From positions 469,259 through 533,258 of the forward strand of contig JAFCMP010000014.1 of NCBI GenBank assembly GCA_017506865.1: 64,000 nt of DNA, written 5' to 3'. Numbering within the stretch: position 1 is the stretch's first letter; each line of letters starts with the position of its first letter. A program made the position numbers and the translations under genes. The notes under the pieces were generated by a model. It did no database searches and had not been told where the DNA came from. It saw nothing but the letters and a program-made list of their open reading frames with translations. Source of the stretch: Tribonema minus. Lineage: Eukaryota > Sar > Xanthophyceae > Tribonematales > Tribonemataceae. Shown here piece by piece: positions 38,074 through 62,804 of this stretch.

Positions 38074-41000
38074 ATGGGTGAGGAAGCGAAGTTCACACTC
38101 GTCCTCATCAGGCAAGCCCTTCCAGCTCGCCTGCGGCACCGGCACGATATCTGGTTTGCACCTTCCAAAGATTTGTTCCAGTTGGTGAATGTGATCCGAC
38201 AGATCCTGTGCCGCACTGTTCTGGCGCTGCACACATGGAGAGAGCGACTGGAACAACCAGGCGAGTCATTCAGGCACTCTGCAGGCGACAATTGCATTCA
38301 CCCGTCTGTGTCAAGCAACATTGGCTTGTCGATTCTCACCCGACAAAGTGTGTGAGAGCACTTGACAGAGGTTTCTGCATCCAGTCTTGCCGAAGTAACT
38401 GCCCACTGCTTGCGAGGATTTTGGTTTGCGCGGCCCATCAGTCTGCCTGCCACTGTGCAATGACTGCACATCAGCATGCCATAGTTGCCATGCTGGGCTT
38501 CAGGCACTGTGTTGAAGTTGCTGAATCATGACACACGACCAAGTTGCAGCAGACATCGGCTGTTGATTCACATCGGAAATCAGCAAAGCATCGGACGATC
38601 CCCAGCACATCTGCCCATGGCTTGTACGGTCAACAACGGTCTGGGTCCTGTGTTTCTCATGTTGGGGACCTCGCCGCTCTGCAGAATCGATTCCGCGGCT
38701 GGCACGACGCGCCGCTGTCTGCTGCTGGGGAAGAGGAAGCCCGCGAAGCAGGCAGGGCTCTGGCTCGAGAAGGGCTGGAATTTGATGCGGTGTACACCTC
38801 AGGTGACACGATCGATCTTCGAGCAATCGTTGTTGAATTCTATTTGATTATCTCCTCGAGCATTCACTTTGGTCATCGCTCACACAAACGTCTCTGGGAC
38901 ACGCTGCTGCCGGACTGCAATGCTGCTGCGATCAGCGCATACAAAATTGTGTGATAGAGCGCTACTTGTGTGCGCGACGCTGCTGTGCCTTGACCCCGCT
39001 TTGCAGTACCAGCGCTTGTTCGCTCTCATTCACAGCAAAGTGTTCCCTTGGCAGCTCAATGAATGACAGTCAGAACCTCATACTTCACAGTAATTGAAGT
39101 ACAGTGTACAGGTGCACGACATGCGCACCTCACACCCTCTGCGCCCACCATATCCAGACTCCTGATGCCCCCGCGTGCGCTGCTGCCCGGTCTTCGCGCA
39201 GTGCTCAAACGTGCCATAAAGACTCATGGCCCCGTGCGCTGCGCTGCCGCTCGGTCCTCGCGCAGTGCTCAAACGCGCCATAAAGACTCCTGGTGCCCGC
39301 GCGTTCTGCCGCCCGGTCTCCTGGCGCAGTGCTCAAACGCGCCATAAAGACGGCGTGGATCTGCATGGAGCAGCTGGATCAGATGTGGCTGCCGGTGGCC
39401 AACGCGTGGCAGCTCAATGAGCGCCACTACGGCGCGCTCACCGGGCTCGACAAGCAGGAGACGGTGGCGAAGGCGGGCGCGGAGCAGGTACCTCAACATG
39501 GAAATTCAGATGCAACTTTCGAAGTTCGTTGATTTTCACTGGTGCCTCGATGAGAACGCGCACAAGCACAGATGATTAGTGTACACTACAGGGTGTCCAT
39601 GGCTCGTCAACAGTTGCTCTATGCTCCGTCAGGTGAACGACACTGCTATCGACGTGTGAACACTCACTTCCAAGTTGCTTTGAATGGTCTGCTTGTCCAG
39701 GCGATGAGCAGTGCTGTAATCAGTAGAGCAAGATATTCATTGTTGAAGTAAGTGTGCTTGCTGTTGTCGCAGTGTAGCGTGGTGCCCAGAGCGCGGGGCG
39801 GGCTACAACAGGCGCCACCGCTGCAGCGCGCTGACGCCGCTTTTGGAGCAGCGCCGGCGAATGCAGGGTATGCGGGCATGTAGCAGTTACATGGCAGTTA
39901 CACACGAAGAATGCCGCAGGGGTGCCATGCCAGTGGGGCTCAAGACACACGACATCGCAGCAGGACAAGAGCGGCGAATTTGATGTGAGAGACACGCGGC
40001 GCAAGACACGCTGCTGCGCGCGTTGCTGGCGCCAAAATGACTCGAGGGATGCCCCCTGACACACGCGACTTCCTGTCGCCACCTCCCCCCCCCCCCCCCC
40101 CCCCCACCCCCCCCACCCGTGAGCAGAGCTCCTTGCGCGCTGCCGCCGCCAAGTTTACTTCAGAGATGCCCTCTGACACACGCGTCTCCTGTTCCCCACA
40201 CACAGGCCTGCGCATGCGACCAAGCCATGCACAGCTGCGCCGTACCAGGCTGGTTGTTGGCAGCGCTCAGACCGGCAAGCTGTCCTAGCGCTGTGAAACA
40301 GCAGAGTTTGGCTTTTTTTTCACTGGAGCAGCAGGGTTGGGGTTCGACCACGCCATATGTCATATCGCTACAGCGCCTCACTCGTCGCGGCAGCCTGGTC
40401 CACTCTCCCTTTTCCTTCCTTGTCTTCTCTGCCACATTGTTCCACTGCCTTTCAAGGGTACGTCACTGGAACACATCTGACAAAGTTACCCCCCCCACCC
40501 CCCCACCCCCGGGCCCCTCCCAGCACCTCCTGACCCCCCCCCCTGCATACGCCGCGACGCGCACAGCGAGCTCCTGCGCCGCAGCCACGCGCACAGCGCA
40601 AAGGGACGACTCGCCACAACGCTCATCACGTACGCCCTTTGCCCATCGCATATGTATGCATGGCGCCACTGCCCTCACAGGTCGCCATCTGGGGCCGCAG
40701 CTACGACAACCCCCCCCCGCCCGTGGACGTGGACAGCCCGTACTTCCCCGGCAACGACCGGCGCTACCGCGGCGTCGACCCGGCGCGGCTGCCGCGCACG
40801 GAGAGCCTCGAGCTGACGCTGCGGCGCGTGCTGCCGTACTGGGAGAGCGACATCCGGCCCGCCGTGCAGGCGGGCAGGCGCGTGTTGGTGAGCGCTGACG
40901 TGATGAACCGCATACTGTATGTATACTGCATGAGCTGATGCTTTGGCGCGTGCTGCCGCACTGGGAAAGCCACATCAGGCCTGCCGTGCAGGCGGGCAAA

Positions 41001-42681
41001 CGCCTTCTGGTGAGCGCTGCCATGCTATGCCGGTCTACCGCATACCCTATGTATGCTGCATCAGCTGACGCTGCAGCGCATGGCGCTGCTTTGGGAGAAT
41101 AAAGTGAGAGCCGCCATGCACGGCACCTCCTCGTGCGATGCCTGTCAGTGCGATGCTGATCCCACTTTACGCCCCTCCGCCTGATTGCCGCTTATAGCGA
41201 TCGTCTCATTGCAGTCGTGAGGCCATTGAATATGAGACATGCACTGTTGGTATCGTTGCACCATCGGCATGACCTCTGGCACAGCACTCGCGTGCGTGTC
41301 ACACACAGCCGCATTGCTCATCACCTGCCAGAGTGACACCACTTCTGCCATCCTCGGTCGGTGACCGATTTCGATTAGTCGAAATCTCCCTCGGGTGAAT
41401 TCCCATCAGGGGGTACTACAGAGCTCTGCATGTGAAGCCCCCCCCCCCCCCTTCCCCCCCAGATTGCTGCGCATGGCAACTCCCTGTGCGCTGTCGATCA
41501 GGTTGCTCCATAGAGTTGGTGTTGCAAGTGATCGCTGAATAAGTCACCCCTGAGTAAAGCACAGGGCACAACGCGCGCACGCGCGCGCACGTGAGGGCGG
41601 CCTACCAACACAAAGCCGACAATGCCCCCCCCCTGCCCCCCCCCCCCCCCCCCCCAGATTGCCGCGCACGGCAACTCCCTTCGCGCCCTCGTCAAGCACC
41701 TCGACAGCATCGCAGATGACGTCATCCCGACCGTCAACATACCTACGGGCGTGCCCCTGGTGTATCGGTTGCGCGCGGATTTCACCCCCGTGCCCAGCGC
41801 TCAGGCGATCGCGCCCCTCAGCGGGCGTCACCTGGGGGACCCCGAGGCAAGTTCAAGAAGTCGAGCGCTTGAAGTTGCTGAACGGCTGGCGGCGCGGGTG
41901 TTATACTTGATGACTTAGTATCATCAGTGGCGTCCCGAGTGGACAGCACGGCTGTGTATTTTCTTTTTAGTTTTTGTTTGCTCGGGTTCAGTTGTGTCCG
42001 TGTGCTTCCATATCTCGGGCAGCGATGGCCGTGATTGATGCCGCAGTTGCAGCGGCAGCAAGCAAACAGACAGCAACTCTTTTGCGGATGCGAGCTTGAA
42101 AATTTTTGTGCTGTAAGAATCGCTTTCTGACGTGGCAGGGTAGTCCGCATGCACTCGGCCACTCTGCGATACATCTGCTGCAACACGAAGTATGCTGCAA
42201 CACGACATGAGCGATCCCACTTGTCTCACAGCTTCTTTGGCCTGCTCCAGAGCGCGCCTCTCCCACTGCACTGTATCAATGATGAACTGGCGTGACAGAG
42301 CGTTGCTGCGCTCGCATGGTACCCTCACCCTCTTTGTTGCTGCTCTTCTTCCCCTCCATCGTGGCCATGCGCACAGTGTGTGCCCCTGCGATCACCTGCG
42401 CCCGCGGCATCGGAATCGCCCGAGATGGATGCTTCGAATTATTGCAGATTGGCCCAGTGGAAGTGTCTGCTGCACATCTGCTGACGCCCGTAACGATGAC
42501 AGCTTCCACTGCACACTACATGTTTAGTACCGTCAAGGGTGGGTCAGCAGCTCCGACTGATGCGAGTAGATCCATGACAGCACGTCTCATCCATTACTTG
42601 CGCATCGCTGCTGCGAGCGCGCAGGTGGTGAGGGCGCGCATCGCGGGCGCCGGCAGCACAACCGGCGCAGCTAAGAAGTGA
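38074..42681 (+). CDS. 2,3-bisphosphoglycerate-dependent phosphoglycerate mutase, 7 exons, 264 aa
   Basis: Exons are 38074-38111, 38233-38260, 38685-38802, 39330-39487, 40681-40887, 41658-41846 and 42625-42681. The product matches dPGAM over its length: [104 protein letters not shown]. His14 (RHGE) and His187 (AAHGNS) are the catalytic pair. The enzyme interconverts 3- and 2-phosphoglycerate in glycolysis. Oddities: His14 sits in a 28-nt microexon; introns 1, 2 and 6 have GC donors (AG/GCAAGC, CAG/GCGAGT, GAG/GCAAGT); the intron 1 acceptor reads TGCAC instead of TGCAG. No targeting peptide is evident, so it is probably cytosolic. Introns 3 and 5 carry decayed copies of exon edges. If the AC acceptor cannot be used this allele is inactive. 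Confidence 0.9.
39166..39357 (+). repeat. 64-bp tandem triplication of the PGAM exon 4 acceptor
   Basis: Three units spaced 64 bp each contain GCGCAG/TGCTCAAACG followed by CCATAAAGAC; their AG dinucleotides end at 39201, 39265 and 39329. Each could encode VLKRAIKT, but only the third continues into the exon (AW...DQMWLPVAN). The first two are pseudo-acceptors in intron 3. Confidence 0.92.
40811..41125 (+). repeat. tandem copies of the PGAM exon 5 donor edge
   Basis: The last 77 nt of exon 5 plus its donor recur at 40933-41021 and, more decayed, at 41063-41125. The first copy is still open and encodes [20 protein letters not shown] followed by GTGAGC. The second has lost most of the coding sense. 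Spacing is 122 and 130 bp. Confidence 0.9.
41442..41700 (+). repeat. duplicate of the PGAM exon 6 acceptor edge
   Basis: The C tract, AG and first 26 nt of exon 6 (CAGATTGCCGCGCACGGCAA) are copied about 197 bp upstream, where the copy reads CAGATTGCTGCGCATGGCAA. Both copies keep the C run and the AG. Confidence 0.85.
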
Positions 42682-44486
42682 ACGCACCAGAGCACGCTTG
42701 TGACAGTGCGGTCTTCAGGGTAGTACCTTACGAAAAAAATGCTTGCGTGGCAGTTGAAGTTGAAGTTGCAGAGCCATGGGAAGCCAAGGCTCCTGGGCAT
42801 CAACCTGAAGGAAACTGTTTGCGCAGCCACTCATATTGTATCGAAGGCGCAGTCAGGCTCAGTCCTTACATATATACCTCCTCCCAGAAAGTTCAAAGAG
42901 CGGATGTAATGAGCAATCGTACTTCAATTGAAGTACGCACGCTCCCTACAGGTCTCTTTGGCGGGCCCTGTTTGCGGTCCATCAAGACCCACACCAGATG
43001 CCCAGGGCCTTTGGTTTGCCCTCCTATGGAAGGGCAAGCTTCCCTCGTCCTGGCATTTGCTTCCACAGCTCAGCAGGGGCAGCGGCTGGGTCCCATTTGT
43101 AGTTGTGTCCATGCACTGTCCAGAAGCAAGGTCCGTACATAGAGGTGTGTACAGTATGAATGTAGTTGCTGCAGAGTCAGGGCTTAGTGCAGAGCATGAT
43201 AGGAGGGAGGTGCTCACAGCAGCTGTCCCCACGCCCTCCCCCTGTTCATAATGAAGACACTCTGGTATTTATCAACAGCTTTGATCATGCATGCGTCCAA
43301 GTTGTAGCGCCTGCGCATTGCGTGTTCTGTACAAATCCTCTGTGCTCATGTCTTTTCGCATGATTCAGCATGCTCATGCCAGTGCCATTGTACAAGGCAT
43401 TGCACAGGCAGCCATGGTGGCCATCCGAAGTTTGCTTAACAGCAACATCAGCCGTCGGCATCAGTCATTGCAACTTGGTTTGAGCTGACGTCTGCATGGC
43501 AACACTGACTCTGTGTTCTGGTGTTTGGCGACATGTGAATATTGCGACGCTGACTCTTTACATGTCGTGCAAGGGGACTGCCAGCGCCCAAGCCATTCAA
43601 CACAAAGCTGCAATCAGTAAAGGCGCTCTAGATTATTCGTGTGGGTAGCACAGTACGCAAGACCTCTCCAGCTGTGCCGACCTTTATAGCCGTCTTGACT
43701 GATCAGACACACCATGTATGCATACCGACAACGAGAAGTTGGCCAAGCACCATCAGTGAGCGAATTGACAGTCAGCTTTGCTGCAGCCACTCATCATCAT
43801 AGCAGCAGCCACAACGAAGTACACCAAAATGCCAGCAAATGCAGCTGTGTTACCACACACACTGGTAAATCTGTGACATGGGTCTCTCGAAATAATGTCT
43901 GTATATTTATCTCCAGAAGGGACAGAGTTGTTGATCAACACGCACATCATGCCCCGCAGCAGCTGATGAGGGGCTCTCTTGCGACGCTGCGGCAAAAGTG
44001 GAAAATGTGGCTTGCCCACCCAGCGCCGCAAATGCTAACCGTGGCCGCAAGCATGCCCCCCCTTTCTCTCTTGGTCCCAGTAACTGGGAGCTGTCAACAA
44101 ACTGATGAGGCTACTACACCGTGCACTGCACGAGGGCTAACAAGAATGTGGCACAGCCGATGGCGCGGAAGCGTGGACCAAAGTGGGGGGACTTCTCTCT
44201 CCACCCACCCCGCCGCCACTCCCCCCCCCCCGCGCGCCCTTTTCCCCTTGGAATGCCTCCCTTTCGCAACGGCTTTCGCCATGGCTTAAAATTGACCGGC
44301 AATGACCGTTACTTAGTCCTTGAATGGTGGGCCTCCCTCTCCCTCTCCCCCGCCCCCACCCTCACCCACCCGCCCAACCTGCATCCCCGCTGCCTGAAAC
44401 GGGCATCAGCCGACCCCCCCAACCCCCCCCCACTGACGGGGAGACTCACATCCCGCGTCAGCGAGCGCGCGTGCCGCCCCCCCTAC
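42682..44486. other. gene-free stretch between convergent genes
   Basis: It lies between the 3' ends of PGAM (plus) and the hydroxy-acid oxidase (minus). No exon is supported. A (TTGAAG)n-like string lies at about 42750-42770. Confidence 0.5.
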
Positions 44487-47400
44487 CTACAGCTTGGATG
44501 GCGTGTAGTACGCCGTCTGGTGCACGACCATGGACTTCTGGATCTCGTCGACGCTCGTGCAGCCCGCGAGCTGCAGCGCCATCGTCAGCTCCTCGTTCAT
44601 CAGCCGGAGCACTGCCGCGACGCCGTCCTCGCCCGAGTGCGCGAGGCCCCACAGCACGGGGCGCCCAATGAAGACCGCGCGCGCGCCCATCGCGAGTGCC
44701 TTGAACACGTCCGTCCCGCGCGTCACGCCACCGTCGAGGTAGACCTCGACCTTGCCGGCGACGGCCGCGACGACCTCCGGCAGTGCCTCGATGGTGGAAG
44801 ACACCGTGTCGAGCTGGCGCGCGCCGTGGTTCGAGACCCAGATGGCGTCCACGCCGTACCTGCGCGGAGGGGGGGCGGCCAGGGGATGGGGTGGGGGGGG
44901 GGGCTTTGGGGTTAATAAGGGGATCACATGTCCACATGCGTCGTGCGCGTGCAGTTTGTGTGCAACAAGATTCCTCGGCGTGGATCAGTAAGAACAACCG
45001 TGTGCTGAGAACAACCCTATGCGGCGTAAGTGTGATCTTGCGGTAGCGAGCGAACTGAGCAAGGGCCGTGACTCTTGCAGAGAGGCAAACATCCTCCAGA
45101 GATGCCCCCCCTCCCACCTCGCGCAGTAATACTTTTCATCGTGGGGAACCTGTCGCGGCCACTCACATGCCCTGCGACAGCAATGAACGAGCCATTTCAA
45201 ACGCAGAACTGGACCTTCACCATAGTACTGGCCTGCCCAATTGCAACTCAAAGCATAACTCTCTGCATCCCAGCTTCACTTTGCAATAATCAACTTCCCT
45301 TGGCAGAACCAGCTTCACTTTGCGCAACCAACTTCTCTTTGTGCAACCGACATTCATTTCACGCAACCAACTTCACTTTGCAGAGCATGCATGTCTCTCA
45401 GCGACTTCAACAGGGGAGCGCACCTGAGCGCCTCGCGCGCGTCCACAGAACCAACTTCACTTAGCGGAACTTCACGTTGCAGAACGAACATCTCTACAAA
45501 AACTTCAACAGGGGGAGCACACCTGAGCGCCTCGCGCGCGTCCTCCGCCGTCATGACGCCCTTCCCTTGACCACGATTGCGAGCTTGGTGATGCTGCGCA
45601 GCCGTCGGATCCCCCAACTTCAACTCCAACATAACTTGAACAATGGTAATAAAAAGGCTTTAACTTGAACCGCACCTGAGCGCCTCGCGCGCGTCCTCCG
45701 CCGTCATGACGCCCTTGACCACGATCGCGAGCTTGGTGATGCTGCGCAGCCACCGGATGTCGTCCCACGACAGCGTACGGTCGATCAGCGACGCCACGTA
45801 CGCGCTCAGGCCCGAGTCCTTGCCGCCGTCCTTGGTGCCCTCGGCGTGCGCGCCGCCGGCGCCGATGAAGTTGCCCTGCGGACGGGAGCGGACGCACGTG
45901 CGGTGGGGCAGGCGGGGTTGAGACGCTATGTGAGCACACGGAGGCTCTCCACAACTAAAGGAGGGGGTGCAAGAAGGGTGTTTGTGCGCGCCGCCGGCGC
46001 CGATGAAGTTGCCCTACGGCGCGAAGGGGACGCACAGTGCGCGCGCAGCACGGTGGGCGCGGGGCTGAGGCGCTGCGCGGATGCACCGCAAACCTTCAAG
46101 AGGGGATGCACAACTTCAAGAGGGGTGTTTGAGACACAAACAGGGAGGGAGTGGCTCCACTCGTGGTGCAGTGGGCTGAGACGGCGCGTGTGCGCTCCGC
46201 ACAGCTTGCACGCACGTCTCGTGGGAAGATGTATGTAAACATATGAGCGCTGCCATGTGCCCTGCTTCATGTGCCTAGCCACAGCAGGTGCCGCGCGTTG
46301 GACCAGAGAGCTACCACAAGCTTGAACGTGCCATGCATCACCGCCACATTGCAGTTGTGCATTAGTGCCAACTCATCTAACTTAATAAAACAAACACCGT
46401 CCTTGCAAATTCGTGAAAACTCATTTTCCTGGTGTCGAGGACTAGATTGTGAAAACTCAATGTTTCTTGTTTCAAGGAATTGGGTGTCGAGTGCAGGCGG
46501 TCCAATATGCCCAGATGTGGAGGGATTTTATCAATCGTGATGCTGGTGCTGCTACCAGCGAAATGCGGGTGCCACAGCATCAGCTACAAGCGTGCGCCAT
46601 TTTCAGTGCGCGCCTTTCTTGGTCTTTTTTTTACAGATGAGGGCACTCGCGCCTGCCATCTGCACTTGCAAGTTTGCTCACAAGCAACCCTGCATGTGCC
46701 GCAGCTGGCTGTTGCCCCCCCCGCCCCCACCCCCCCCCCCCACCCCCCTCGTTTCCTGGACAGCCGTCCAGCAGGCTCCATTGATGCTTCGCAAAGTGCC
46801 GCATCGGGGTGACGCTCCGCTGGCGCTCCCAAGCGCTAAACCATGCAGCCACTGGGTACGCACAGCACCGAGGGCACATCGCCCTCGCACGTTGCGGACT
46901 CACACGTGCACGCCGTCGCACCTCACACGTTCCCACCGTCGCACCCTTACCGACTCACGCGTGCGCAGAAAAAACTCATGGCATATGCCCCCCTCCCCCC
47001 CCCCCCTAATAGTCGCCAGCCTGGCGCGTTACTCGCCCGGTGTGGGCTGCACAAGCTGTTGTCGCGATGAGAACTGAGCGGCAGCACGTAGATCTGACAG
47101 TTGCGCGCTCGCACCACTCAGTACTGCAACTCAACTGTTCAAAGCGCCGCTGACAGGTCGTTTCAAAAACGTGATTGCATGAAGTCGAGTGACGTTAGCC
47201 ATGGCGCGGCGGCAGAGCTCACCGTGAGGTGGACCGACAGCTTGCAGCGGTCACGCACGTCGGCCTCACGAAAACTCAATCACGCAGGTAATAATTAAGT
47301 CATGAAGTGAATCAAATCATGAAGTGAATGCCTGTGACCACTCACCATGGTGAGGTGGACCGGCAGCTTGAAGCGGTTGCGCACGTCGGCCTTGCAACGA

Positions 47401-48690
47401 TGAATTCATGAAGCGCACGTTGTCGCAGGAAAATGTATTCATGAAGTTAATTCAATTCCTCCAACCACACTCACCATGGTGAAGTGGACCAGCAGCTTGA
47501 AGCGGTTGCGCACATCGGCCTCGCGCCGTGTGAAACAACCTTGTGAATCTATAAAGTCAAAGTTTGGAAGTCAATTCAAGGCGGCAGTGCTCACCATGGT
47601 GAGGTGGACCGGCAGCTTGAAGCGGTTGCGCACGTCGGCCTCGCGCCGCCCCAGCACGGGCGTGTCCACCGTGACCGCCAGCGCCGTGTAGCCCGACGCC
47701 TCCGCGCGCTTCACGAGCTCCGCCGTCAGCTTCCTGTCCTTGTACACGTACAGCTGGAACCAGCGGGGGCCCCCGGGGTACGCCGCCGCGACCTCCTCCA
47801 GGGGCGTGGTGGACCACGAGGACAGGGTCATGAGGGTGTTAGACTTGCCGGCGGCGGCGGAGGTCGCCTTCTCGCCGTCGTCGTGCGCCATTCGCTGCAT
47901 GGCGGAGGGGGCGATGCAGATGGGGGAGTTGACGGGGATGCCCAGCACCGTCGTCTTGTTGCTGGTGGAGGACACGTCGCGCATGATGCGGGGGCGGATG
48001 CGCAGCCTGGTTCACGGCAGGCGAGGCAGGGAGAGCGGGTGAGCGTAGAGGTCGGATATAGCGGAGAGAGGTACGTGTCGGTGGTGGTCGGTGATTCGAT
48101 TAGCACGCTTCCAGGCCGGTGATTATCGAGTGCTGGTATTCAGAAACCAGGCCCTAATTCACAAAGTGCCAGATGGTCCGGGGTTTCAGCACGGCGTAGG
48201 CGTGATCCCAGCAAGAATGAGCCGCTTAGACGAGCCGAGTACGTGCGTAGCAAGCTTAGGTGTTTCTGATTGTTGAGGTTACGCTCGTGACCGACTGCCA
48301 AGGGGGAGCCAGAGGCCCGCTTTCGCACCTGCTGAATGCTGCCCTGTTCTCGCGCAGCGTGATCATGTCGTTGGCGCCGCTGGCATAGTAGTCGAAGGCG
48401 TTCTTGGGGAGCATCATCTCGGCGGCCTTCTCATACTCGCGCACGCTCACGGGCTCCCACCCTGGCACCAGCGCAGCAAGTGCAGCAGACAACGTGAGAT
48501 GGCGATTTAGAGTACCTGTCAATCGTCAAGCCACCATGTGAACCGCTCAGGCTGTCCTGTGCATGCTCTCGCTGACTGCAACCGAACCAAGCCGGCCAGC
48601 ACAGCCAGACTCACCAGCCATCTGGGGCGCCATGGGCGCCTGGGTGCTGGGGCCCACGGGCAGAACCATAGCATCGTGCCCGTCCGCCAT
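44487..48690 (-). CDS. peroxisomal (S)-2-hydroxy-acid oxidase (glycolate/lactate oxidase type), 5 exons, 397 aa
   Basis: Exons are 48690-48615, 48461-48329, 48006-47595, 45875-45676 and 44859-44487; all joins keep phase. The FMN-dependent alpha-hydroxy-acid oxidase fold is clear: [147 protein letters not shown]. His285 and Arg288 of the SNHGARQ motif are the catalytic base and substrate ligand; Lys261 contacts flavin. The last residues SKL are a PTS1 signal, so it acts in the peroxisome, oxidising glycolate or L-lactate with O2 and releasing H2O2 (photorespiration if the cell is photosynthetic). The start at 48690 is the simplest; an in-frame ATG further upstream would lengthen it. Introns 3 and 4 hold copies of exon edges. 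Confidence 0.93.
45418..45770 (-). repeat. tandem copies of the oxidase exon 4 donor edge
   Basis: The exon 4 end and donor (plus CACCTGAGCGCCTCGCGCGCG) occur at the true site (45675) and again at 45523 and 45423. The middle copy extends about 85 bp into coding sequence (GTCATGACGCCCTT, CGAGCTTGGTGATGCTGCGC) with a small insertion; the last keeps only about 27 bp of edge. Confidence 0.9.
45846..46040 (-). repeat. duplicate of the oxidase exon 4 acceptor edge
   Basis: The first 30 nt of exon 4 and the adjoining intron (plus GCGCCGATGAAGTTGCCCTG) recur about 140 bp away as GCGCCGATGAAGTTGCCCTA inside intron 3. The AG is kept. Confidence 0.9.
47218..47650 (-). repeat. four tandem copies of the oxidase exon 3 donor edge
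   Basis: CTCACCATGGTGAGGTGGAC plus about 40 nt of coding edge occurs at the true junction (47591) and at about 47473, 47342 and 47221, spaced 116-132 bp. The GT donor is kept in all copies while coding substitutions increase. The extra copies lie in intron 3. Confidence 0.92.
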
Positions 48691-50126
48691 TGCTGCAAGC
48701 TGCCTCGGTGTGGTGGCTGTGCTCGAGCTGGCTGCGGTGGCAATGATGTTTTGGGCAAACTGTTTGCCTTTGAGGGGGAAAACACACGTCATGCCCCCCC
48801 CTCCCAATGTATTTTTTATTCGCAGAGGTTCGTGCATTTTCACTCTTCGCCACCTCATGAATTCAGCTCAACGCTGCATTGCAAAGTGGAAGTGCAGAGA
48901 GTGCACTTCACTTCATTTGATGTCAGCATTGGCAGATGGGAGTCGCGGGTAGCGAGCACCTTCGTCAAGCACGTTGACACGTGGTGGCCACAGTGTTCTG
49001 ACTGCACATGCCTGTCAACATGTCAATTGAGCTAATGTCAGTTGCAGATCCACCAGCACTTTGCCCTGCTTCTTCGTCCGCAGGCCTTGCGCACGTGCAT
49101 TTCACCACGCGCGTTAGCACTGCTCAGTGCAGCATATATGATGAAGTCTTCAAGAAGTTCCTTCCCGCTTGACTGGTGCTTCTTCGTTGTGGTTGCTCCT
49201 GATAAATGGCGGCAATTGTGAGCGTTCAACACCTGTGCACAAGCCCAATACACAATGTATCAAATAAGCACAAGCGCATGAACCACAGAACGTTGAGACA
49301 TGGTCAGATTGGTGCGCGTGGTAAGTGAGATGATGGCGGTGATTCTGATGCAGCCACGCACACAGTGGCAGCATCGCCTGTAAGCAAGGGTAATATATGT
49401 AGACCTGTTTGCAGAGGACAGATGCAGCCAAGTGAGGCCTTGGCTCAAGGCTTCAATGCCTGCACACCACCATGCCAAATCATAGCTTCAGCATGACGCC
49501 ACATCTGTCATTCATGAAGGTGACATGCATGCATCATTCATGCCCAGCCCGCAATGTCAGGACATAGCCAGCAAACTATGCCATGTACTGTAGGTATGCT
49601 TCTTTGACCATCATGCAAGAGATGATGTTGTTCTTGTGCGCACTTGGCATGGCCACGAAGGTCCAATACGGCATACACTGGCATTGGCATGAGCATGCTG
49701 AACCATGTGGAGGGACATGTGTACAGAGAATTAATAAAAAGTACAGAGAACTATTCTGGTCATTATGATCAGACTTGCTACAAACTTGCCACTTTGGCAA
49801 TAGGGTCATTTGGCAGCATCGGGGAGCAGGGGCGGAAGCTGCTGGAGGCTGTGGCGACGGAGTATGCCAGCAGGATGTCAGTGCCCGGAGGAGCGCGCCC
49901 TAAATCTCAAGGGCATCGCCCTGGCGCACTTACGCTCGGCACTGTCGGCAGCGCTCCACATGGCGTACTCTGGCCGTGTCATGACACACATGGCAGAATC
50001 CAGGGGGGGGGGGCACATGGAGGAGGACGTAGGGGAGGACCCCGAGATGCCATTTGGCGGCGGCGGCGTTTGAGTGGTTGTCGTTGCGACACTTTCAGAC
50101 TGTCATACGACATTTAGATTCCTTAC

Positions 50127-50172
50127 AGCTAGATGCCAATCATCTGGGCTTTTTCGCGCCCTGAGCGAGAAT
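50127..50172 (+). repeat. interspersed short element, copy 1 (partial)
   Basis: It contains the core CATCTGGGCTTTTTCGCGCC followed by CTGAGCGAGA, shared with elements at 57034, 57985 and 58341. The left part is shorter than in the other copies. Confidence 0.7.

Positions 50173-51099: not shown

Positions 51100-51100
<1 letters not shown>

Positions 51101-51130
<30 letters not shown>
51101..51130. repeat. (CAG)10 trinucleotide repeat
   Basis: Ten perfect CAG units follow the Kelch gene stop codon, so they would lie in its 3' UTR as CTG on the sense strand. Confidence 0.9.
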
Positions 51131-51132
<2 letters not shown>

Positions 51133-51157
51133 CTCACCGTGCATGTTGCAGCACCGC

Positions 51158-53086: not shown

Positions 53087-54852
53087 GGCGCCGCTAAGCC
53101 GCTCGAACAGAGTAATTTTTAGGGTGGAAGCGTGTGTCCTAGGTATGGACCCACAGCGCGGCTATACGCTCTGTATTCTGTGTGCGTGCTGTCCTGTCGC
53201 GAGCTGTCGCTACAATTGCAGCTGCTACGAAACAAATTGTGTTCTCTGTAGGCTCCGTCGTCGCTGCGGTTCACTGCGCCTCCCTCGTCGCTGCGTCTGT
53301 CGCCTCCTGTCAATCAGTGCGCTGAGGTGCTTGCTGGAGTCGTGATGCCTGTCAGCCACCAGCATATGTGTGCCAGTGCACCGCTCGTTGTAGCGACGGG
53401 TTTTGGTGAGCGGTCTGCTGCAGCCGGCCGAGCCTGGTCGTGCATCGCAGGGCTTTATTGCTGCAGAGCGAGCGCAAACATGTTTCATTTCACCGTGTGG
53501 GGGTTACTGTCCCTTCGAAACCACACATCGTTGAAGTTGAGTTTTGGTAGCCTTTTCAACACACACATGCACCTGTGCGCAGAGGACACTGACGCCACAG
53601 GCATCGACGCCGAATGTCTGCACATCAAGAGCCTGCGCTGTGTAGGACGCTGCGCTCCTGCCAATTCACCATTCGTCTCTCTCAGTTCGTGATTGTCTTG
53701 TCATTTGCGTTTGACCTCTCACCGATGTTTGGGGCGCTCCCTCTCGCCCGCCCCGCTACTGTCATGTTGCTGCCCGCGTCACTTGCACGTGTGAAACAGC
53801 CTATATGCATTGCTGTTGCTGCCAGACCTGGTTGGTGGTGCAGTTACTGCTGCCGTCCTCATCCTTTCTAGGATGAACAAAACCACTGCGCGCTTACTCC
53901 GCAGCGCACGTGCAACAACTCTTGGTAGCGCTGTTGCTGCCGGACACAGCCTGCTTGGTTGTTGCTGCCGTTTCCATGTCATTTCTAGAACAAAAGTCCG
54001 CTGAACTTTGTCCCATCCTGTACAGCTGTACTGCCGGACCTGCACGTCTTCACACGTGCCTTGGCGTACACGACCGACTGCACGAGCAGCCCAACCAATG
54101 CACATCGCATCTCGTGCATACAGACTATGCAAGTGCCACCACAGCAGCACATCTACACACACCAGGACAGATGATCATGCGTCGCTGCAAGTTGTCAGGC
54201 AACCAGTGACTTTGATTTGTCTTGTTCAACGATTGTCTAGTTGAACAAGCACACTGCGAGCAATGTGCAACACCAGCAGACACATTTCGCTGCGTGCTGC
54301 TGTGCGCACTCTACGTCATCTCAAGCTCGCCGTGTCAAAGAGTCAAGGCGCGCATTGCAGCTGACATCAGATCTTCACATTCATCCGCATAAAGCAGCTT
54401 GCGTCCCGGCCGCTCGCGCCGGCTGAGAGCGAACACCACTGCAAATGACCCCCAAAAAACACGACACACTACGACAACAAAGGCAAGACACACATGCGCC
54501 GACGATTCTACGTTTGGAGCAGCGCTATCACGCTGAGCCCGCACGCACTTGAGCTTGTCGCCACAGGCAGACCTGCACAACGCCTGTGCGGCGCGCACTG
54601 CTGGTGCGCTCGCTCCGCTTGCAGAAGCAGTGCGTGCCATGGACGCCCCGGTACCGCTGGCCTGCATACTCTCTTGGCACAGCCACGCTGAGCTTGGCGC
54701 ATGTCAACAGCACTCAGTGCGCCCATCACCGCCCTCTTGCTCGCTGACCGGCGCATCTATCCCAGCTAGCAACCACGCGTCACCGCCGCCAACACTCAAT
54801 GAAGACTAGGCTGCGATAATGCTGCGCAGCGCAACATACTTCGAAGTATGCG
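53087..54852. other. gene-free stretch between Kelch and SEL1L-like genes
   Basis: It should contain the Kelch promoter and the 3' UTR of the SEL1L-like gene, both on the minus strand. No exon is supported. Confidence 0.5.
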
Positions 54853-57800
54853 TCATCTCGCCGGCGCAGCGCCGAGGTGCCGCTGCCGCCGCCGCCGCGC
54901 CGCCCGCAGCTCCAGCGCGATCGGCACGAGCACAAGCACGGCGACTGTCAGCGCCAGCGGCGCAGCAAGCTCACGCAGCAGACGCCACAGCAGCGCCAGC
55001 GCACAAGCGTCGCTTGTGCTGGTCCCGCTTGTCGTGTCGCTGCCGTCACTGTCATTGCCGCAGCGCTTGGTGCCAGCATTCGCAGCGCTGCCGGCATTGG
55101 TGCTGCAGCTGCTGCTGCTGCTGTAGGGTGCATTGCCGCTGCCACCGCTGCTGGCGTCGTCATCAAGGCTGCCATCGCCAGTGCCTCGTGCTGCCCACAG
55201 TCGCTGCCACAGTGCGCCGGCGCTGCTGCTGAACGGCATCTCAAAACGCGGCAGCACAAGCTTCAGCCACACACGCGCCTGCGTACAGAAGCAGCAGAAA
55301 AAGCGCAGATGTGTGATGAGCATGAGCGGCTTCTGTTGGCACCAATGCAGCCACCGGTTGGAACGGCTGGCCCCCTTGAGGTACAAACACACGCATACTA
55401 ACACGCACACTGCATACTCATATGCCTGCTGCAGGCGTGCTCAGCTCTACACGCAGCGTAGGCAGAATTGAGATAACACATGCTGGTACGCAGCGTCCCT
55501 GGCAGGGCTCCCTGCGCAGTGGTTCTTCAACGTTGAGGCGCGTGCACCTTGGGGCGGCGGCGTGCCGCGCATGACTCTGTGCGGCAATTCTGCCGAGACG
55601 AAGAGCATCGAGATGCATCGCGGCAGCCTTGATCGGTCGCCAGCAGCACGCACACGGCGGCTGCGCACCTTACACGCCCGCAAGCGATTCCGTGAACGCG
55701 CTGCACGTGCAGCAGCGGGGGCGCGCTGAGCCGTGCTGCAGCATCAGCGCTCAACGCATCACACCACAGCTGCGCGCGGGCATCCCCCGAGGCAGTGCTC
55801 GCAGTTCCACGCGCAGCGGCAGACACGCAACACATATGACGTAGTGCACGCAGCCGCAAGGGAAGGGGTGAATTCGGCGCACGTGGGCAAGCGACATCGG
55901 CTGGGGGCGCCGGCGGGCGCGACGCCCCATGACATTTGATATCTGCCGCTGAACTTCAACTTTAATGACTTGACTCGCGCCGGCGCAAACTTCTCTCACA
56001 GCCCCCGACGTTCTTCACGGTGCACGGCGCACGTGACGATTTGTGTTTTTCAATCTTCAAGAACCGTCCTCGCACGCACTTTGCCATGGCGCCTGGCGCC
56101 CCGCTCAGCGGCGTGCGCGTTCGGCGGACAGCGCATGTAAGCGGCGTGTCATCATGTACCTGAGCGACCAGCGCGAGGGCGCGCAGCAGCAGGCCGCAGG
56201 CCGCGCGCGCGCCGCCGCTGCCGCGCCAGCTCCCCGATCTCTGCCCCTAAATTTCAACTTCTGACGCTGCGTCTGGCGCACGGCATTTCAGCCCTGTAGG
56301 CAGCCCGACTGCCCGCGATGCAGCGCATGCGTGCCCGGTACGTCGTCCCACCTACCTGAGCGAGCAGCGCGAGGGCGCGCAGCGGCAGGCCGCGCGCGTC
56401 GCCGGGCGGGCCTCGCGCGCCGCCATGCGCGCCGCGCGCGCGTACAGCGCCAGCGCCCTTTGGAGGTCGCCGCCGCGCTCGTGCAGCGCGCCGAGCGCCA
56501 CCACGCCTCGCGCGAACCCTGCCGGCAAGGGGTACCGGGGGGGGGGGGGGAAGTTCAGCAGATGAGGGGGGGGGGGGGTGGTTCAGCAGATGAAGGTGGG
56601 GGTGGGTTGTAGTGGTGTAGCGGATGAAGGTGGGAGAGGGTAGGGGAGGGCTGAGCGGTATGAGCTGTCGCATGCTGCCACGAGAGTTGGCGTTTCAGGG
56701 ACGCACGCGGCACTGCGCACGACGCCACGCGGACGACGCGCTGACAGGCGCGTGCATGCACACGCACGCCGCGCGTGTCACCGCGGCCGCGCAGCACTCT
56801 TCAGCTTCTGTCGCCAGCGCTCAGCACAGAGAGAGTTATGCTCTGAAAGTGGGTCTATACCACGGCGAGCCGTGAGTGGACACAATGCGAGAGCGGTCAG
56901 CGCGGCGCACCGCCAACCCGCGCGTCTGTCGACCAGATCCCCGGCACCAGCAGACAGCGCTTCCGTGCTATGACCGCTCGTGGATCGAGCACGCTGACAC
57001 TGTGACCCCCCCCACCCCCTGTACTTCCTATCGGTTCTCGCTCAGGGCGCAAAAAGGCCCAGGTAGATGCACATGTCAAGACCTGCTACCAGAGTCTACA
57101 TGTGCCCTTGCAGTGACTATGTGTCTCAGAGCTCATTGGCAATCAGCCCAGATCACATTCCGCACACTTAGAAACTGTAGTTTTTTGTACATTCTACATG
57201 CATACATACTGCGGTGCTGGCCCGCCCGTACCACCACAGCGCGCGGCCGGCGTCGCGCGGGTTCCCCCCTGCCCCCTGCGCGAAGGCTCTACACATGCCC
57301 CCCCTTACGGCGACCAAGTTCCTCACAGCTCATATACGATCGCTCTACTTAAGTGACATCCCACACGCATACATACTGTAGTACATACCTGCGGTGCTGG
57401 CCCGCCCATACCACCACAGCGCGCGGCCGGCGTCGCGCGGGTACCCCCCTGCCCCCTGCGCGAACGCGTCGCCCAGCGCCATGAACGCCTCCGCGTCGCC
57501 GGCGGCGGCAGCCATGAGGTGCAGCCGCAGCGCCGCGGCGCGCCGCAGATCCTGTCGACAGAGGATGGTGCGCCAGCAGCGCATCATGATTGGTTGTGGA
57601 TATGATTGGTTGTGAAAACATATTTCAAGTTCTCTGAAGACCGTGGCTCTAAATATGTTCAACAATGATTTAGAGAACTTCGTGAGGTGCAGCCGCAGCG
57701 CCGCAGCGCGCCGCAGGTCCTGGCGAAAGAAGGTGTTGCAGCAGCAGCGCATCATGATTGATTGTGAATACATATTTCAAGTACTTCAAAGACCGTGGCT

Positions 57801-60800
57801 TTGACTGTGTTTATTATGATTTATAGTACTTCATGAGGTGCAGCCGCAGCGCCGCGGCGCGCCGTAGGTCCTGGCGACAGGCGGTGTGTTGCGTCAGCAG
57901 TCAGGATGGTGGGTAGCGTATCGTGTATGCGCCATCAAGCACATACAGCGTTGCGCATCGAGACACTCTCGATGTGCTCACAAGATGCATGTAGATTCTG
58001 GTAGCAGGGCTGGACATCCACCATCTGGACTTTTTCGCGCCCCACGCGAGTTTTCATGAGAAGCACACATCCTTGACGCTGACAGGAGAAGGGCAAGATC
58101 GCGTTAGCATCAGCGTAGCTGGTTCCGCCACAGCCGCGCGAGCGCTGCCGCCGCGCCATGCGAAGCGCTCAGCACTACATACACCGCGTTTGCGGCGGCG
58201 GCGGCGCCGAGCTCCGCCGAGCTCCGCCGCCCACCACTGTACAGTACACTGCCAAATACAACCTGCACGCTGCCGTGAGAAAGGCGCCTTCGCGTCAGCG
58301 CGCACCTCATTCGGCCACAGCCGCGCGAGCGCCGCTGCAAGATTCTGGTGGCAAGCTGGACATGCACCATCCCGGGCGTTTTTGCGCCCCTCAGCGAGAC
58401 TGAAGAAGAAGCACATCATCCGTCACGCTGCCGTGGCTAGGCCAAGTTCGCGCCAGAATCGCGTACCTCATTCGCCCACAGCCGCGTGAGCGCTGCCGCC
58501 GCGTCACTCGGCACGCCTAGCACGTATGCCGCATTGCAGCGGCCACGTCGTAGCCGCGCTCCGCCACCCACACCCACCAAACCCTGTACGATACACTCTC
58601 AGATACATCCTGCACCCTGCCATAAGAGTGCGCGTTCGCGTCAGCACGTACCTCATTCGGCCACAGCCGGCGCGAGCGTTGCTGCGTCACGCGGCGCACC
58701 CAGCACGTACGCCGCATTCGCCGCGGCGATGTCATAGCCGAGCCCCGCTGCCCGCCAAGTACATGTAGTCTTCGCGCTGACGTGAGATGGGCGACTTCGC
58801 GTCAGCGTCAGCGTACCTGGTTCGGCCACAGCTGCGCGAGCATTGCTGCATCGCGCGGCGCGCCCAGCACATACGCCGCATTTGCCGCGGCGACGTCGAA
58901 GCCGAGCTCCGCCGCCTCCGCGTACGCCATAAAGGCGCACGCGGCGTCGCGCGCCAGGTGGCAGTCAAAGCCGGTGCGCACGCGGTCGCCCCAGGCGCCA
59001 GCCTGCGATCAGGAGGGGGGGGGGGCAGTCAGGAAGAAGTGTGGGGGGGGGGGGGTGCCTTTGTCAGGTTTTCGCTGGTTTCGAGGAGGTGCGCTAAGTG
59101 AGAGACGTGCTGGTGAGCGATGGGCGTGGAATTGTGGTGGCGGCGATGTCGACTGACCCCCACGCATCGTCGACCGTCATGCCGTCTTGCTTGATGGCGC
59201 GCATGCCGCGCATGGGGGGCATGGGGGGGGGGGGGGGGGGGCGGGGCGCAGCGCCCGGCCGCCTCCGGGGCAACTGTAGCCGTAACCCTAACCACTAACT
59301 CCAGCTCTCAGCACTGGCAGCCGTGCACTCCGCACGCGTAAGCACGTCGGCCGCAGCGACACACCCCACGGCCCTCTACAGGGACACCCGTCCGCGCGTC
59401 AGTCGGCATCACATCGCACGCAGAACGCGGCGTGGCTGCGTGCAACAAAAGCAACGATTCCACAGCGACTGTGGTGATGCTCATCCGTGGCAGCAGCGAG
59501 CAGGCGTGAGCAGTGCGCGATCGGCCCGCCGACGCGGCGTGCGCGCTGCGGCGTCCGAGTCAGTGACAACGATCCTCGCAGCACTGGGCGGCTGTCGACA
59601 ACAGGCGGTGTCGCACGTGTACTGAGCCCTGACACCTTTGGGGTTAGGGTTGGGGTTAGCCACAGCAACGACCCGGCCGTACACTGATAATGCAGCACCA
59701 GCGCAGCATCGCGAAACCCACGAGGAAAACAGGAGGTGCCGTGGACCACGAAAAGCAGGCCCGCCCCGCGGCACGGAGCCTGTGTGAGCTGCACTGCGCA
59801 CACTGGCACCTTCGGCTCTCAACGGTCCGCAGCATGCAATCAGGACCACCTCTTCAACTTCAACTTCAACACCCCTGGCGATGTCCTTCTAAGAAGACAG
59901 CGTGCGCGGTCAGCAGGTGCTCCGTGGCGCGCAGTCGCGGCGGCGCTTGCAACTTCAACAACCCCCTGCTGCTGGGCGCCCCTCAAGACAACACAGCGCG
60001 CGCGCTGCCGCACCTCGGCGGCGGTCAGTGGGTGCTCCACGGCGCGGCGCGCGCTGCGCGCGGCGCCTCCTGCTCTGAACAATTCCGCAGCAAGCAGACG
60101 TCATGAACACCAACTTCAACTTCAGAAGTTTCAACTTCAACGACCCTGCCGGCAGCGCGCCTCCATAAGACAGAGCACGCAGCGCGTTCGTGCGCGTCAC
60201 CACGCACCTCGGCAGCTGCCAGCAAATGCTCCGCGGCGTGCTGAGCGCTGCGCGCGCCGCCCTCGCCGCGCAGCAGCATGTGTAGCAGTCATGACCACCA
60301 ACTTCAACTTTAACTTCAACAACCCTGCCGGCACACCGCAACGAGACTGCGCGCCCAGGCATTCGAGCACTCGTGCGCGACGCCGCTCACACCTTGGCAG
60401 CGATCAGCAGGAGCTCCGCGGCGTGCTGAGCGCTGCGCGCGCCGCCGCCCTCGCCGCGCAGCAGCATGGCGGCGGCGGCGCGCGCGGAGTCAAAATGGCC
60501 GAACTGCGTCGCGCCAAGGCGAAAGAGGCGCAGCGCGCGCTGCGCATCGCGACGCGTGCCGTCGCCCGCACGAAGCATGTGCGCCGCGTTGTAGAGGGAG
60601 TCGCCATCGGCGGCGGCAGCGGCGGCGCGCTCGAAGAGGAGGAAGGCCTGCGCGGTGATTGGTAGGCGGAGGGGGGGGGGGGGGGGGGGGATGGGTGCGC
60701 AGATGATGGTGGTGGGGGTAGGCAGGCGGGGGCGACGGCGGGTAGATATACAAAGTGTGTACATGTACGTAGGCTGCGGCGCGCTTAAAGAGGAGGAAGG

Positions 60801-60836
<36 letters not shown>

Positions 60837-62804
60837 GAGTGCGCATAGATGACGGTGGTGGGGGCAAGGCAGGCGGGGGCGACGCCGGGTAGGTATACCG
60901 AGTGTGCCGGATATGTATACGGAGTGTCTACAAAGGGCGTAGAGAGGGGTCGTGGATTGGGCGGGTAGGCTAGGGGGCGCATACGCGGGTGGGTTATGGA
61001 GGGCAGGTATGCGGGGGGGGGTATGGGCAGAGTAGGCAGGCGTACGGGCGTGCAAACCACAGGAATCCGGAAGGGGTCAGGTGTGTACAAGGGGGGTATG
61101 CACGCGCAGGCGTGCAAGCGACAAGAAGCGCAGTGGATACGTGTGCGCAGGGAAGCAGCCCGCAGGCGCAGGGAAGGAGCGCACTCATATCATCGCCGCT
61201 GCTGTGAAATGCTTGCGCATGCAGCAGATTGCGGCCTGGCGCCGACGTCATGCCGATGCCTATGTGTGGCACTCGTTTCCATGAGCACTGACACCGAACC
61301 GACCACTTCAACAGTTGTCTGCGAATGGTGACGCACGAAGAACACGCTTCTGTAAGTCAGATGCAAAAACTGCCCACTGACTTCTGATGATAATTTTGAA
61401 GTATATACTTTCTTCAAAGTGAGCCAGTTTCCAAGCCCTACCTGCGTCCTGTTCTGCGGCAGCGTGTGCCCGAAGTAGTGCTCAAACCCCAGACCTGCAG
61501 GCACGCAGAAGCAGACGTGCACAGAAAATAATGCATGTCATGAACATCTGTACTTCTAAACTTCGCATATACAGATCAGAACAAATTTGAGCCAAGGTGC
61601 GAAAGCACCGTGTTCTGCACACGCGCATACACGTCTGCACATTTCTATCTATAAGCCAGACGTGACACTACAGGAACCTCGCTCCATATGAAAAGCGCGC
61701 GACAGCCTCCATGTCCGCTGGTGAGCACGAGGACAGTGCTAGCCTCAGCCTCAACCCTAGCCCTGACGCCTATGCTACCCTTACCCCTGCCTCTGCAGTG
61801 CAATGGGGCTCCGCCGATCATAGATGCACTTTACTCAACTCGAGAACTTTCACATCGCTCAGTAGCACCTGCGCTTTTGTGCTGCCATTACATATTGACA
61901 TGTGCCGCAATCTCCACTTTGAATCACAATCATTTTCTTCATGCCATCAAGCGTGCACTCTTGGACGCTGAGCGCTGCCTCCTCGCACAGGCAAGTACAC
62001 TATTTCAGGTATGCATTTAGGAGATTCAGTGCATGCACGTGGCCGCTGATCGCGGCCTTTTGTACGGGTATGTACACTTTTTCTCTCTATACATGCCTAC
62101 CATTCAGCGCGTGCACGTGGCCGCCGAGCGCTGCCTCCTCATACAGGCATGTGCGCTTTTCTCGCGATACATGCCTACCATTCAGCATGCACACGTGACC
62201 CTGTGCGCTGCCTCCCCGTACAGGTACGTACGCTTTTCTCGCTATACATGCCTACCATTCAGCGCGCACAAGTGGCCGCTGAGCGCTGCCTCCTTGTACA
62301 GGTATGTATGCTTTCCTCACTGTACACGCTTACCATTCAGCACACAGGTATGTACACTCTTCTCGCCACACATGCTTACCATTCAGCGCGTGCACGTGGC
62401 CACTGAGCGCTGCCTCCTCACACAGGTATGTACACTTTTTCTCGCTATACACGCCTATGTCATACAGGTATGAAGGTACGGCTTTCTCAGTACGCATGCC
62501 TACCATTGAGCGCGCGCACGTGGCCGCTGAGCGCTGCCTCCTCGTACAGGCATGTACACTTTTCTCGCTATACATGCCTACCATTTGAGCTGTTCGCAGT
62601 GTCCATGCCTAGTCGTCTTATATTGCCTACCATTGAGAGCCTAGTAGTATTATTATACCTACCATTGAGAGCGCGCACGTGGCCGCTGAGCGCTGCCTCC
62701 TCGTACAACGCCACGGCGCGCGCGTGGTCCGCCGCCGCGCCCTCGCCGCGGATGTACATGCCGGCGGCGGCGGCGCGCGCGTCGTCGCTGCCGAGCGCCG
62801 CTGC
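54853..62804 (-). CDS. SEL1L/HRD3-like ER-associated degradation protein (5' end unresolved)
   Basis: Supported exons: 62804-62663, 61494-61442, 60647-60393, 59002-58817, 57551-57389, 56518-56356, 55278-54853. Sel1 repeats run across the joins, for example SGHVRALNGLGFEHYFGHTLPQN over two exons and WYGRASTAGFARGVVALGAL over two more. The segment AELGFDVAAANAAYVLGA matches the SEL1L landmark AEQGYEVAQSNAAFIL, and the spacing to the following repeats is the same. The last exon ends with a Ser/Asp-rich linker, a hydrophobic span (LAAPLALTVAVLVLVPIALE) and a basic tail (RAARRRRQRHLGAAPAR), the topology of SEL1L. The family scaffolds the HRD1 ubiquitin ligase in the ER membrane. Exon 56518-56356 seems to contain a one-base shift: its start reads GVVALGALHERGGDLQRALA but its end fits the next exon only in another frame (LPLRALALLAQ). 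Five junctions carry tandem copies in introns. Further 5' exons lie beyond 63.4 kb. Confidence 0.85.
56158..56215 (-). repeat. copy of the SEL1L-like exon 56518-56356 donor edge
   Basis: About 55 bp repeat the exon end and donor (plus ACCTGAGCGACCAGCGCGAG against ACCTGAGCGAGCAGCGCGAG). The copy keeps the frame LLLRALALVAQ, which supports LPLRALALLAQ as the true frame at this exon end. Confidence 0.8.
57034..57102 (-). repeat. interspersed short element, copy 2 (reverse)
   Basis: On the minus strand it reads CTGGTAGCAGGTCTTGACAT, then GGGCCTTTTTGCGCCCTGAG and CGAGA. It matches the elements at 57985 and 58341 in the opposite orientation. Confidence 0.8.
57213..57290 (-). repeat. copy of the donor edge of SEL1L-like exon 57551-57389
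   Basis: About 75 bp of exon end (plus GCGGTGCTGGCCCGCCCGTA) recur about 172 bp downstream in the gene. Here the donor has lost one G (CAG/TATG), so the copy would not work as a splice site. Confidence 0.88.
57522..57880 (-). repeat. three copies of the acceptor edge of SEL1L-like exon 57551-57389
   Basis: ATGAGGTGCAGCCGCAGCGC with the following CGCGCCGCAG and acceptor occurs at 57515-57565 (true), 57681-57725 and 57836-57880. Intervening intron sequence (TGATTGTGAATACATATTTC) is shared as well, so whole units of about 155-165 bp were duplicated. Confidence 0.9.
57985..58055 (+). repeat. interspersed short element, copy 3
   Basis: It contains TTCTGGTAGCAGGGCTGGAC, ATCCACCATCTGGAC and the core TTTTTCGCGCCCCACGCGAG. 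It lies inside an intron of the SEL1L-like gene, antisense to it. Confidence 0.8.
58110..58935 (-). repeat. five copies of the donor edge of SEL1L-like exon 59002-58817
   Basis: The true exon end (plus GTACCTGGTTCGGCCACAGC) is followed by diverged copies starting near 58647, 58464, 58302 and 58110. Up to about 100 nt of coding edge are kept (CGCATT, GCCGCGGCGA, GAGCTCCGCC). In the copy at 58110 the donor is lost (TAGCTGG); in the other three GT is kept. Confidence 0.9.
58341..58400 (+). repeat. interspersed short element, copy 4
   Basis: It reads GATTCTGGTGGCAAGCTGGA, CATGCACCATC and GGGCGTTTTTGCGCCCCTCAGCGAGA (split here by a few bases). It lies between two of the duplicated exon edges. Confidence 0.8.
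59905..60470 (-). repeat. four copies of the donor edge of SEL1L-like exon 60647-60393
   Basis: The true edge (60390-60470; GGAGCTCCGCGGCGTGCTGA) recurs at about 60204-60282, 60011-60070 and 59905-59945. Each is preceded by strings of CAACTTCAACTTCAA, which belong to the duplicated unit. Confidence 0.88.
60778..60802 (-). repeat. partial copy of the acceptor edge of exon 60647-60393
   Basis: GGCGCGCTTAAAGAGGAGGA followed by AGGCC and a long G run repeats the exon start at 60622-60650. Here the AG is not preserved. Confidence 0.7.
61943..62711 (-). repeat. eight copies of the donor edge of SEL1L-like exon 62804-62663
   Basis: The last 45 nt of the exon plus its donor (plus TACCATTGAGAGCGCGCACG, then GTGGCCGCTGAGCGCTGCCT) recur at 62501, 62376, 62251, 62175, 62097, 62024 and 61943, with a shortened copy at 62331. 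Spacing is about 75-125 bp. The intronic neighbour (TCTCGCTATACATGCC) is copied with it. Nearly all copies keep ATG/GTAG, that is, a plausible 5' splice site. Confidence 0.95.

Follow-up and report, generated by a model that had tools for sequence, protein, structure and literature searches.

Tandem copies of exon edges beside splice junctions of Tribonema minus introns and their possible growth by junction-crossing duplication

Why should introns carry decayed copies of the very exon edges that border them? The question is raised by the window analysed here, a 64-kb stretch of a Tribonema minus assembly (158 Mb, 554 contigs), in which a first-pass annotation described such copies at 12 or more splice junctions and took them for a general way of intron growth. 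Several routes of intron gain are documented, and the lengthening of introns is usually ascribed to transposons and random insertions.

The PGAM gene (forward strand) and the glycolate-oxidase-like gene (reverse strand, below the oxidase) of the window were modelled by spliced protein alignment. Three SEL1-like introns (reverse strand) were placed from coding peaks, with splice sites picked by eye from the sequence. A Pfam search with ten window peptides gave good matches for the oxidase, ankyrin (two) and kelch (one). Three peptides matched Sel1 below the Pfam cut-off, and there was no Pfam match for two PGAM peptides and one other; the identity of PGAM is based on a weak Pfam match and the spliced alignment. 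A fourth oxidase intron (44528-43608) looked spurious and was excluded from the count. Rfam search of the 64-kb window gave no match at gathering scores. Ten introns were modelled in these three genes, and at 11 of their 20 junctions the intron contains copies of its own exon edge. One ankyrin acceptor also has an own-edge copy. The junctions and repeats concerned are as follows.

38803-39329, forward strand: PGAM-like intron (spliced model), acceptor with two copies, 39202-39223 and 39266-39287
40888-41657, forward strand: PGAM-like intron (spliced model), donor with one copy of the upstream exon edge, 40932-40998, GT kept at 41010
40888-41657, forward strand: the same intron, acceptor with one copy, 41463-41491, matching the initial 29 nt of the exon at 41658, AG present
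47594-45876, reverse strand: oxidase intron (spliced model), donor with three copies, 47475-47528, 47346-47395 (GT present in these two) and 47224-47270
47594-45876, reverse strand: the same intron, acceptor with one copy, 45984-46013, identity 1.0 over 30 nt, AG kept
45675-44860, reverse strand: oxidase intron (spliced model), donor with two copies within 45424-45603, both with GT
62662-60648, reverse strand: SEL1-like intron, donor with seven copies within 61950-62548, GT in five; the nearest has identity 0.98, the others 0.83-0.90
62662-60648, reverse strand: the same intron, acceptor with one copy, 60773-60801, AG lost
60392-59003, reverse strand: SEL1-like intron, donor with two copies within 60014-60280, both with GT
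58816-57552, reverse strand: SEL1-like intron, donor with four copies within 58119-58732, GT in three
58816-57552, reverse strand: the same intron, acceptor with two copies within 57683-57870, both with AG
26789-26820, reverse strand: ankyrin gene, single copy of the edge of the exon after the acceptor at 26157, AG present; the 900 nt upstream of this acceptor were taken as intron, the donor position being unmodelled
23518-23929, reverse strand: ankyrin gene, local direct repeats beside the coding peak 23407-23568, junction unmodelled
26178-26565: ankyrin gene, further repeats, unlinked to any modelled junction

The first PGAM acceptor is a simple example: both copies correspond to the first 22 nt of the exon starting at 39330, each is preceded by AG, and a 64-nt tandem array covers 39167-39351. 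The junction copies are real, and the earlier figure of at least 12 junctions in SEL1L-like, PGAM, oxidase and ankyrin genes is reproduced by the 11 junctions and the ankyrin acceptor. As to the ankyrin junctions themselves, one acceptor was borne out; the other two groups of repeats are unlinked to modelled junctions.

Some other features of the window can be mentioned here. Interstitial telomere-like arrays (TTAGGG and CCCTAA/CCCTGA) are located at 18912-18968 and 63631-63693. Two long similar coding peaks (4566-5654 and 19306-20139), BTB-like by eye, apparently represent a duplicated gene. GC content falls to 0.47 at 8001-12000 within a window of 60% GC.

Outside the window, 19 modelled genes in 20 regions (153 kb in total) were sampled: all ten CCT/Cpn60 chaperonin clusters among 56 Pfam matches and nine kinesin loci out of many. 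This sample is partly non-blind, repeated exon matches in some chaperonins and in kinesins C246 and C511 having been noticed before selection; the chaperonins were all included regardless of repeats noticed beforehand. The recognised chaperonins are CCT1, 2, 3, 4, 5, 7 and 8 and three GroEL-like ones, and none of the ten clusters is left for CCT6, in a search that gives a lower bound and with no CCT6 reference aligned. A small purpose-written spliced protein-to-DNA aligner produced 124 introns, of which 16 short or non-canonical ones were removed, leaving 108 introns and 216 junctions positioned by protein similarity, without RNA. The consensus splice sites of these introns are CAG/GTGAGT for donors and a pyrimidine-rich GCAG/G for acceptors.

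Alignment of each exon edge (up to 80 nt) with its own intron found a copy at 60 of the 216 junctions at a score of at least 40. In the same test, inverted sequences gave 0, other genes' introns 0.2, the same gene's other introns 0.4 and dinucleotide-shuffled sequences 0 junctions of 216, so the self-alignment against shuffled controls proposed in the first-pass annotation, run here on 19 genes, came out in favour of its observation. At a score of at least 44, copies were found in 12 of the 19 genes, and donors had them more often than acceptors (37/108 vs 21/108, Fisher p=0.02). At score 36, they were present at 50 of 164 chaperonin junctions and 11 of 52 kinesin junctions. The number of copies per array ranges from 1 to 8, as described before, and the median exon content per array (53 nt at donors, 51 nt at acceptors) agrees with the 20-100 nt of exon edge previously given for a copy. 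The copies are also same-sense, as was claimed: direct and inverted local repeat pairs number 63 vs 3 in the window and 270 vs 3 in the 20 regions, where pairs inside one array are non-independent. Another word size gave 60 direct and 7 inverted pairs in the window, some of the 7 being self-overlapping palindromes.

Repetitive introns are typical of introner-like transposons and of assembly artefacts alike, but here either origin has practically no probability. The arrays do not look like an assembly artefact: most copies are diverged, and among the 59 best ones the aligned stretch matches the exon edge perfectly in just 4. Three array segments were used for a whole-genome DNA search, including the oxidase donor array 47224-47528 and the SEL1-like donor array 61950-62548, both of which proved locus-specific. 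The matches were the segments themselves, their own exons, and one paralogue's exons together with that paralogue's own intronic copies; no dispersed copies of the three segments were found anywhere in the genome. Introners are dispersed mobile copies (PMC9860276). Target-site duplications or terminal inverted repeats are a further mark of introners; among local repeats in general, inverted pairs are rare in the sampled regions (3 against 270 direct). The arrays resemble them in that many introns of one genome are affected, but the three units searched are private to one locus, and similar copies in the introns of many genes, by which introners are recognised, amounted to just the 0.2 of 216 junctions already given for score 40.

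Repeats in the 19 genes group into 111 arrays: 42 across a donor, 24 across an acceptor, 23 purely intronic, six overlapping exons and of unclear class, and 16 outside the models. The first three classes (89 arrays) were taken for a placement test, in which 66 arrays lie on a junction, compared with 30±4 (maximum 46 in 2000 runs) for random placement under a null that assumes ancestral intron length to equal present length minus the array excess. As conserved exons ease the detection of old junction arrays, the test was repeated with exons masked. The excess persisted: 53 of 81 arrays were linked to a copied junction (null 21±3.7), or 46 of 74 when collapsed to one per junction (null 19), although the masked test is still partly exon-ascertained, as its link criterion reuses the exon-edge score. 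For young arrays, containing a pair of at least 88% identity, the masked result was 18 of 21 at a junction vs 4.9±1.8. Junction-anchored intron growth is partly supported by this excess, but the 23 purely intronic arrays of 89 contradict the earlier statement that copies are always next to the true junction.

These intronic arrays could also be expected if tandem duplication occurred evenly throughout the genome, with no junction preference, and exonic duplications were purged by selection. Repeat coverage drops into the exon about as random units would and is flat within introns, which is consistent with such a filter. With exons masked, array-poor genes have no junction excess either (3/14 vs null 3.5, compared with 50/67 vs null 17.6 in array-rich genes), although this split is partly circular, since the rich genes were selected by their junction copies. 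However, the placement permutations show the junction excess both with and without exons, and the array density of 1.06 per kb in introns compared with 0.31 in the flanks (which may hold unmodelled genes) falls to 0.20 per kb for clearly interior arrays. We regard the selection filter as improbable; as a sole cause it is disfavoured by the permutations.

The main rival explanation is that junctions are mutational hotspots for duplication, owing to breaks, replication stalling, chromatin or R-loops at transcribed junctions, with no regrowth from a conserved seed. The junction seems to lie near the middle of the duplicated units, with exon making up 0.3-0.6 of the unit in 39 of 66 junction arrays by a plain count with no formal test, and genes differ strongly from one another, both of which a hotspot could explain. 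Single-copy arrays are informative in this respect. They are found at junctions in 23 of 44 cases (null 13±3, maximum 25 in 1000 runs), and in 28 of 51 with exons masked (null 13.7±3). As the single-copy arrays exceed the null with exons masked, a hotspot may act at the founding of arrays. Multi-copy arrays show a much larger excess, however (43/45 at a junction vs null 17 to 21; 25/30 vs 7.4 with exons masked), and this would not be expected from a founding hotspot by itself. Overall, we consider the hotspot explanation unlikely.

Multi-copy arrays also have an internal order. In 38 arrays the nearest copy is more exon-like than the farthest one in 26 and less so in 11 (p=0.0004), and the rho between distance and identity is negative in 16 of 20, so the copies nearest the exon are the freshest. 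The period at junction arrays has a median of 129 (5-95% range 84-186). Spacings resemble each other more inside one array than across arrays (147 of 5000 permutations, unfiltered); a filtered version of this test (0 of 5000) was discarded because it was biased by its own filter. Some copies are parted from the exon by an unrelated spacer and do not lie strictly head to tail.

Introns with copied edges are longer. Median length is 457 nt for introns with no copied edge, 797 nt with one and 1045 nt with two (n=61, 33 and 14). Two plastid-type Cpn60 paralogues with six intron positions in common provide a direct comparison: in one of them these introns are 141-772 nt long and one of six has repeats, in the other they are 343-2382 nt long and five of six have repeats. 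The spliced models take the outer junction, in accordance with the earlier suggestion that only one edge stays in use.

Classical intron gain by tandem duplication of an AGGT-bearing exon segment involves the same kind of mutation. In the Rogers model, a duplicated exonic AGGT segment reportedly places the start of the downstream exon at the 5' end of the new intron and the end of the upstream exon at its 3' end. The copies described here are located the other way round: 52 of 59 (33 of 38 donor and 19 of 21 acceptor copies) are in the intron half adjoining their own edge. The model also implies a new intron position, whereas in the one pair compared six positions are common to both Cpn60 paralogues, of which one is nearly array-free. 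Classical gain thus has hardly any probability as the source of these arrays. A junction-crossing relative of it is nevertheless known. In potato RdRp, an intron was gained through tandem duplication crossing the intron-exon boundary (PMC4974935), with splice signals carried along as in our arrays. That was one event which made a new intron, while here many junctions are involved, arrays reach eight copies, and it is an existing intron that becomes longer. Novel intron positions in Drosophila were attributed to partial tandem duplication of a coding sequence that contains a proto-splice site (PMC2891723). In that case, too, local tandem duplication supplies intron sequence, but its source is exon-internal and makes an intron, whereas the source here straddles an existing junction.

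Taken together, the best reading is tandem duplication across the junction with regrowth from the conserved exon, and we hold it to be somewhat more probable than all the others combined. Segments of about 75-200 bp straddling the exon-intron junction would duplicate in tandem, presumably at the DNA level by replication slippage or unequal exchange. The outermost junction (the first donor or the last acceptor) would stay in use and the protein would remain intact, while the extra exon-edge copy would land in the intron and decay. The conserved exon could then serve as an ever-fresh partner for more unit-sized duplications, so that new units would keep being added at the junction, older copies would be displaced towards the interior and the intron would lengthen. 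The growth pattern fits such extension from the junction inward with the exon as a lasting partner. The unrelated spacers between copy and exon count against it, as simple tandem duplication does not give them. So do the seven genes that lack copies in the exon-edge test and, subject to the circularity mentioned, the missing junction excess of array-poor genes.

GT is kept in 32 of 38 best donor copies and AG in 18 of 21 best acceptor copies (one case short of the junction was dropped); for all copies reaching the junction the numbers are 63/78 and 39/44. The earlier remark that copies usually keep GT or AG is correct in this sense, but there is no sign of special upkeep, since retention is about what the mean exon-part identity (0.92) predicts. 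Among copies found via their intron part, 14 of 33 keep the splice dinucleotide, a figure taken as unreliable because indels shift the mapped junction.

GT-keeping donor copies score 9.3, the same as the average of all real donors (9.3), against 10.2 for the real donors of copied junctions (paired p=0.08); in 40 of 63 the score equals or exceeds that of the copy's own real donor. AG-keeping acceptor copies are weaker (7.6 vs 9.3, p=0.0005), and 7 of 39 reach the score of their own site, partly owing to drift of the longer acceptor signal. Selection might retain copies as alternative exon ends, or as splice sites with a spare, decoy or regulatory role, which the donor scores would fit. Copies found by exon similarity seem to agree with this: in 51 of 55 copy pairs the exon part has changed less than the intron part, changes show third-position bias, and stops are absent from changed codons of the 60 best copies, with 6 in 2224 codons of all copies. 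However, when ascertainment was reversed and copies were found by their intron part, the exon part was not significantly better kept (0.91 vs 0.89, 19/33, p=0.14). Most of the apparent constraint can therefore be put down to ascertainment, and synonymous exon change can explain the third-position bias, so we do not claim coding constraint on the copies. Moreover, gaps that are not a multiple of three occur in 10 of 60 best copies, the distance to the copy is a multiple of three in 26 of 78 cases, and extension of the exon to a donor copy meets an in-frame stop in 65 of 78. The copies do not resemble mutually exclusive exons either, which would be whole coding exons with both splice sites: most are partial edges of the median lengths given above, and the same gaps and stops speak against such exons. 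Retention by selection is very improbable, and the predicted donor and acceptor copies are probably inert.

Donor arrays are commoner than acceptor arrays (42/108 vs 24/108), copied donors are nearly undiminished in score, and acceptor copies are rarer and weaker. This may be because the first-transcribed donor commits first, whereas acceptor copies precede the real acceptor. We tentatively extend this to a bolder picture, which is possible but falls short of even confidence: the junction would be a self-renewing growth point with the exon edge as a permanent template, an array would preserve as many as eight past states of the junction in approximate age order, and the spliceosome would have to pick among near-identical sites by a rule in which the first transcribed wins. 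Visible end-growth would give a layered record of how introns grow, the near-identical sites would be a natural test bed for splice-site choice, and the donor-acceptor asymmetry leads to a direct prediction for co-transcriptional splicing. For annotation, the consequence is that gene finders will face many false exon ends.

The arrays are very unevenly distributed. The rate of copied junctions differs by gene among the 19 (chi-square 77.6, 18 df, 0 of 5000 shuffles), and seven of the 19 lack any copy in the exon-edge test, although such genes can still hold a few weaker or shorter repeats in a looser listing. At score 36, 14 of 26 junctions are copied in CCT5, 0 of 24 in CCT2 and 0 of 16 in CCT1. 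All three subunits belong to the same complex, which makes it improbable that expression level causes the unevenness. Duplication across junctions is widespread, as the first-pass annotation supposed, but to call it a general habit is too strong, because copies are so unequally shared between genes. CCT2 (L045) has 12 introns with no local direct repeat at the threshold used, in sharp contrast to the other CCT genes. Beside CCT5, in a 7-kb region (L063, C51:34000-41000), a gene-like stretch at 4051-6743 has arrays around its coding peaks; the first 4 kb of the region, which contain the CCT5 end and a further coding peak, have none.

Among known repeat systems, intronic minisatellites consist of head-to-tail units with a fairly regular period and vary in copy number between individuals. 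Our arrays may share this arrangement and period in part, with moderately regular spacing within an array and some unrelated spacers, but differ in that a conserved exon edge anchors each unit, which includes a splice site. In the accessible parts of the literature, new introns are traced to duplications, in one case across a junction. Arrays anchored at junctions are not reported there as a frequent way for introns to grow; as that material covers few subscription journals, this is weak evidence of novelty.

Several observations concern the assembly as a whole. Contig C489 (11.8 kb) was compared over 1.2 kb and is identical in reverse to part of C70, so redundant contigs exist; this sole duplicate pair compared, within one assembly, showed no difference. 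Light-harvesting proteins gave 92 matches in the genome, and those on C296 and C490 have identical scores. The best single-domain structure matches bear names of cryptophyte type, and a search for phycoerythrin alpha, with an uninformative control, had no match; the genome was judged to be that of a photosynthetic eukaryote, probably of the red lineage. Short fragments of PsaA/PsaB, several with stops, occur at 11 places over the contigs and are probably nuclear inserts of plastid DNA.
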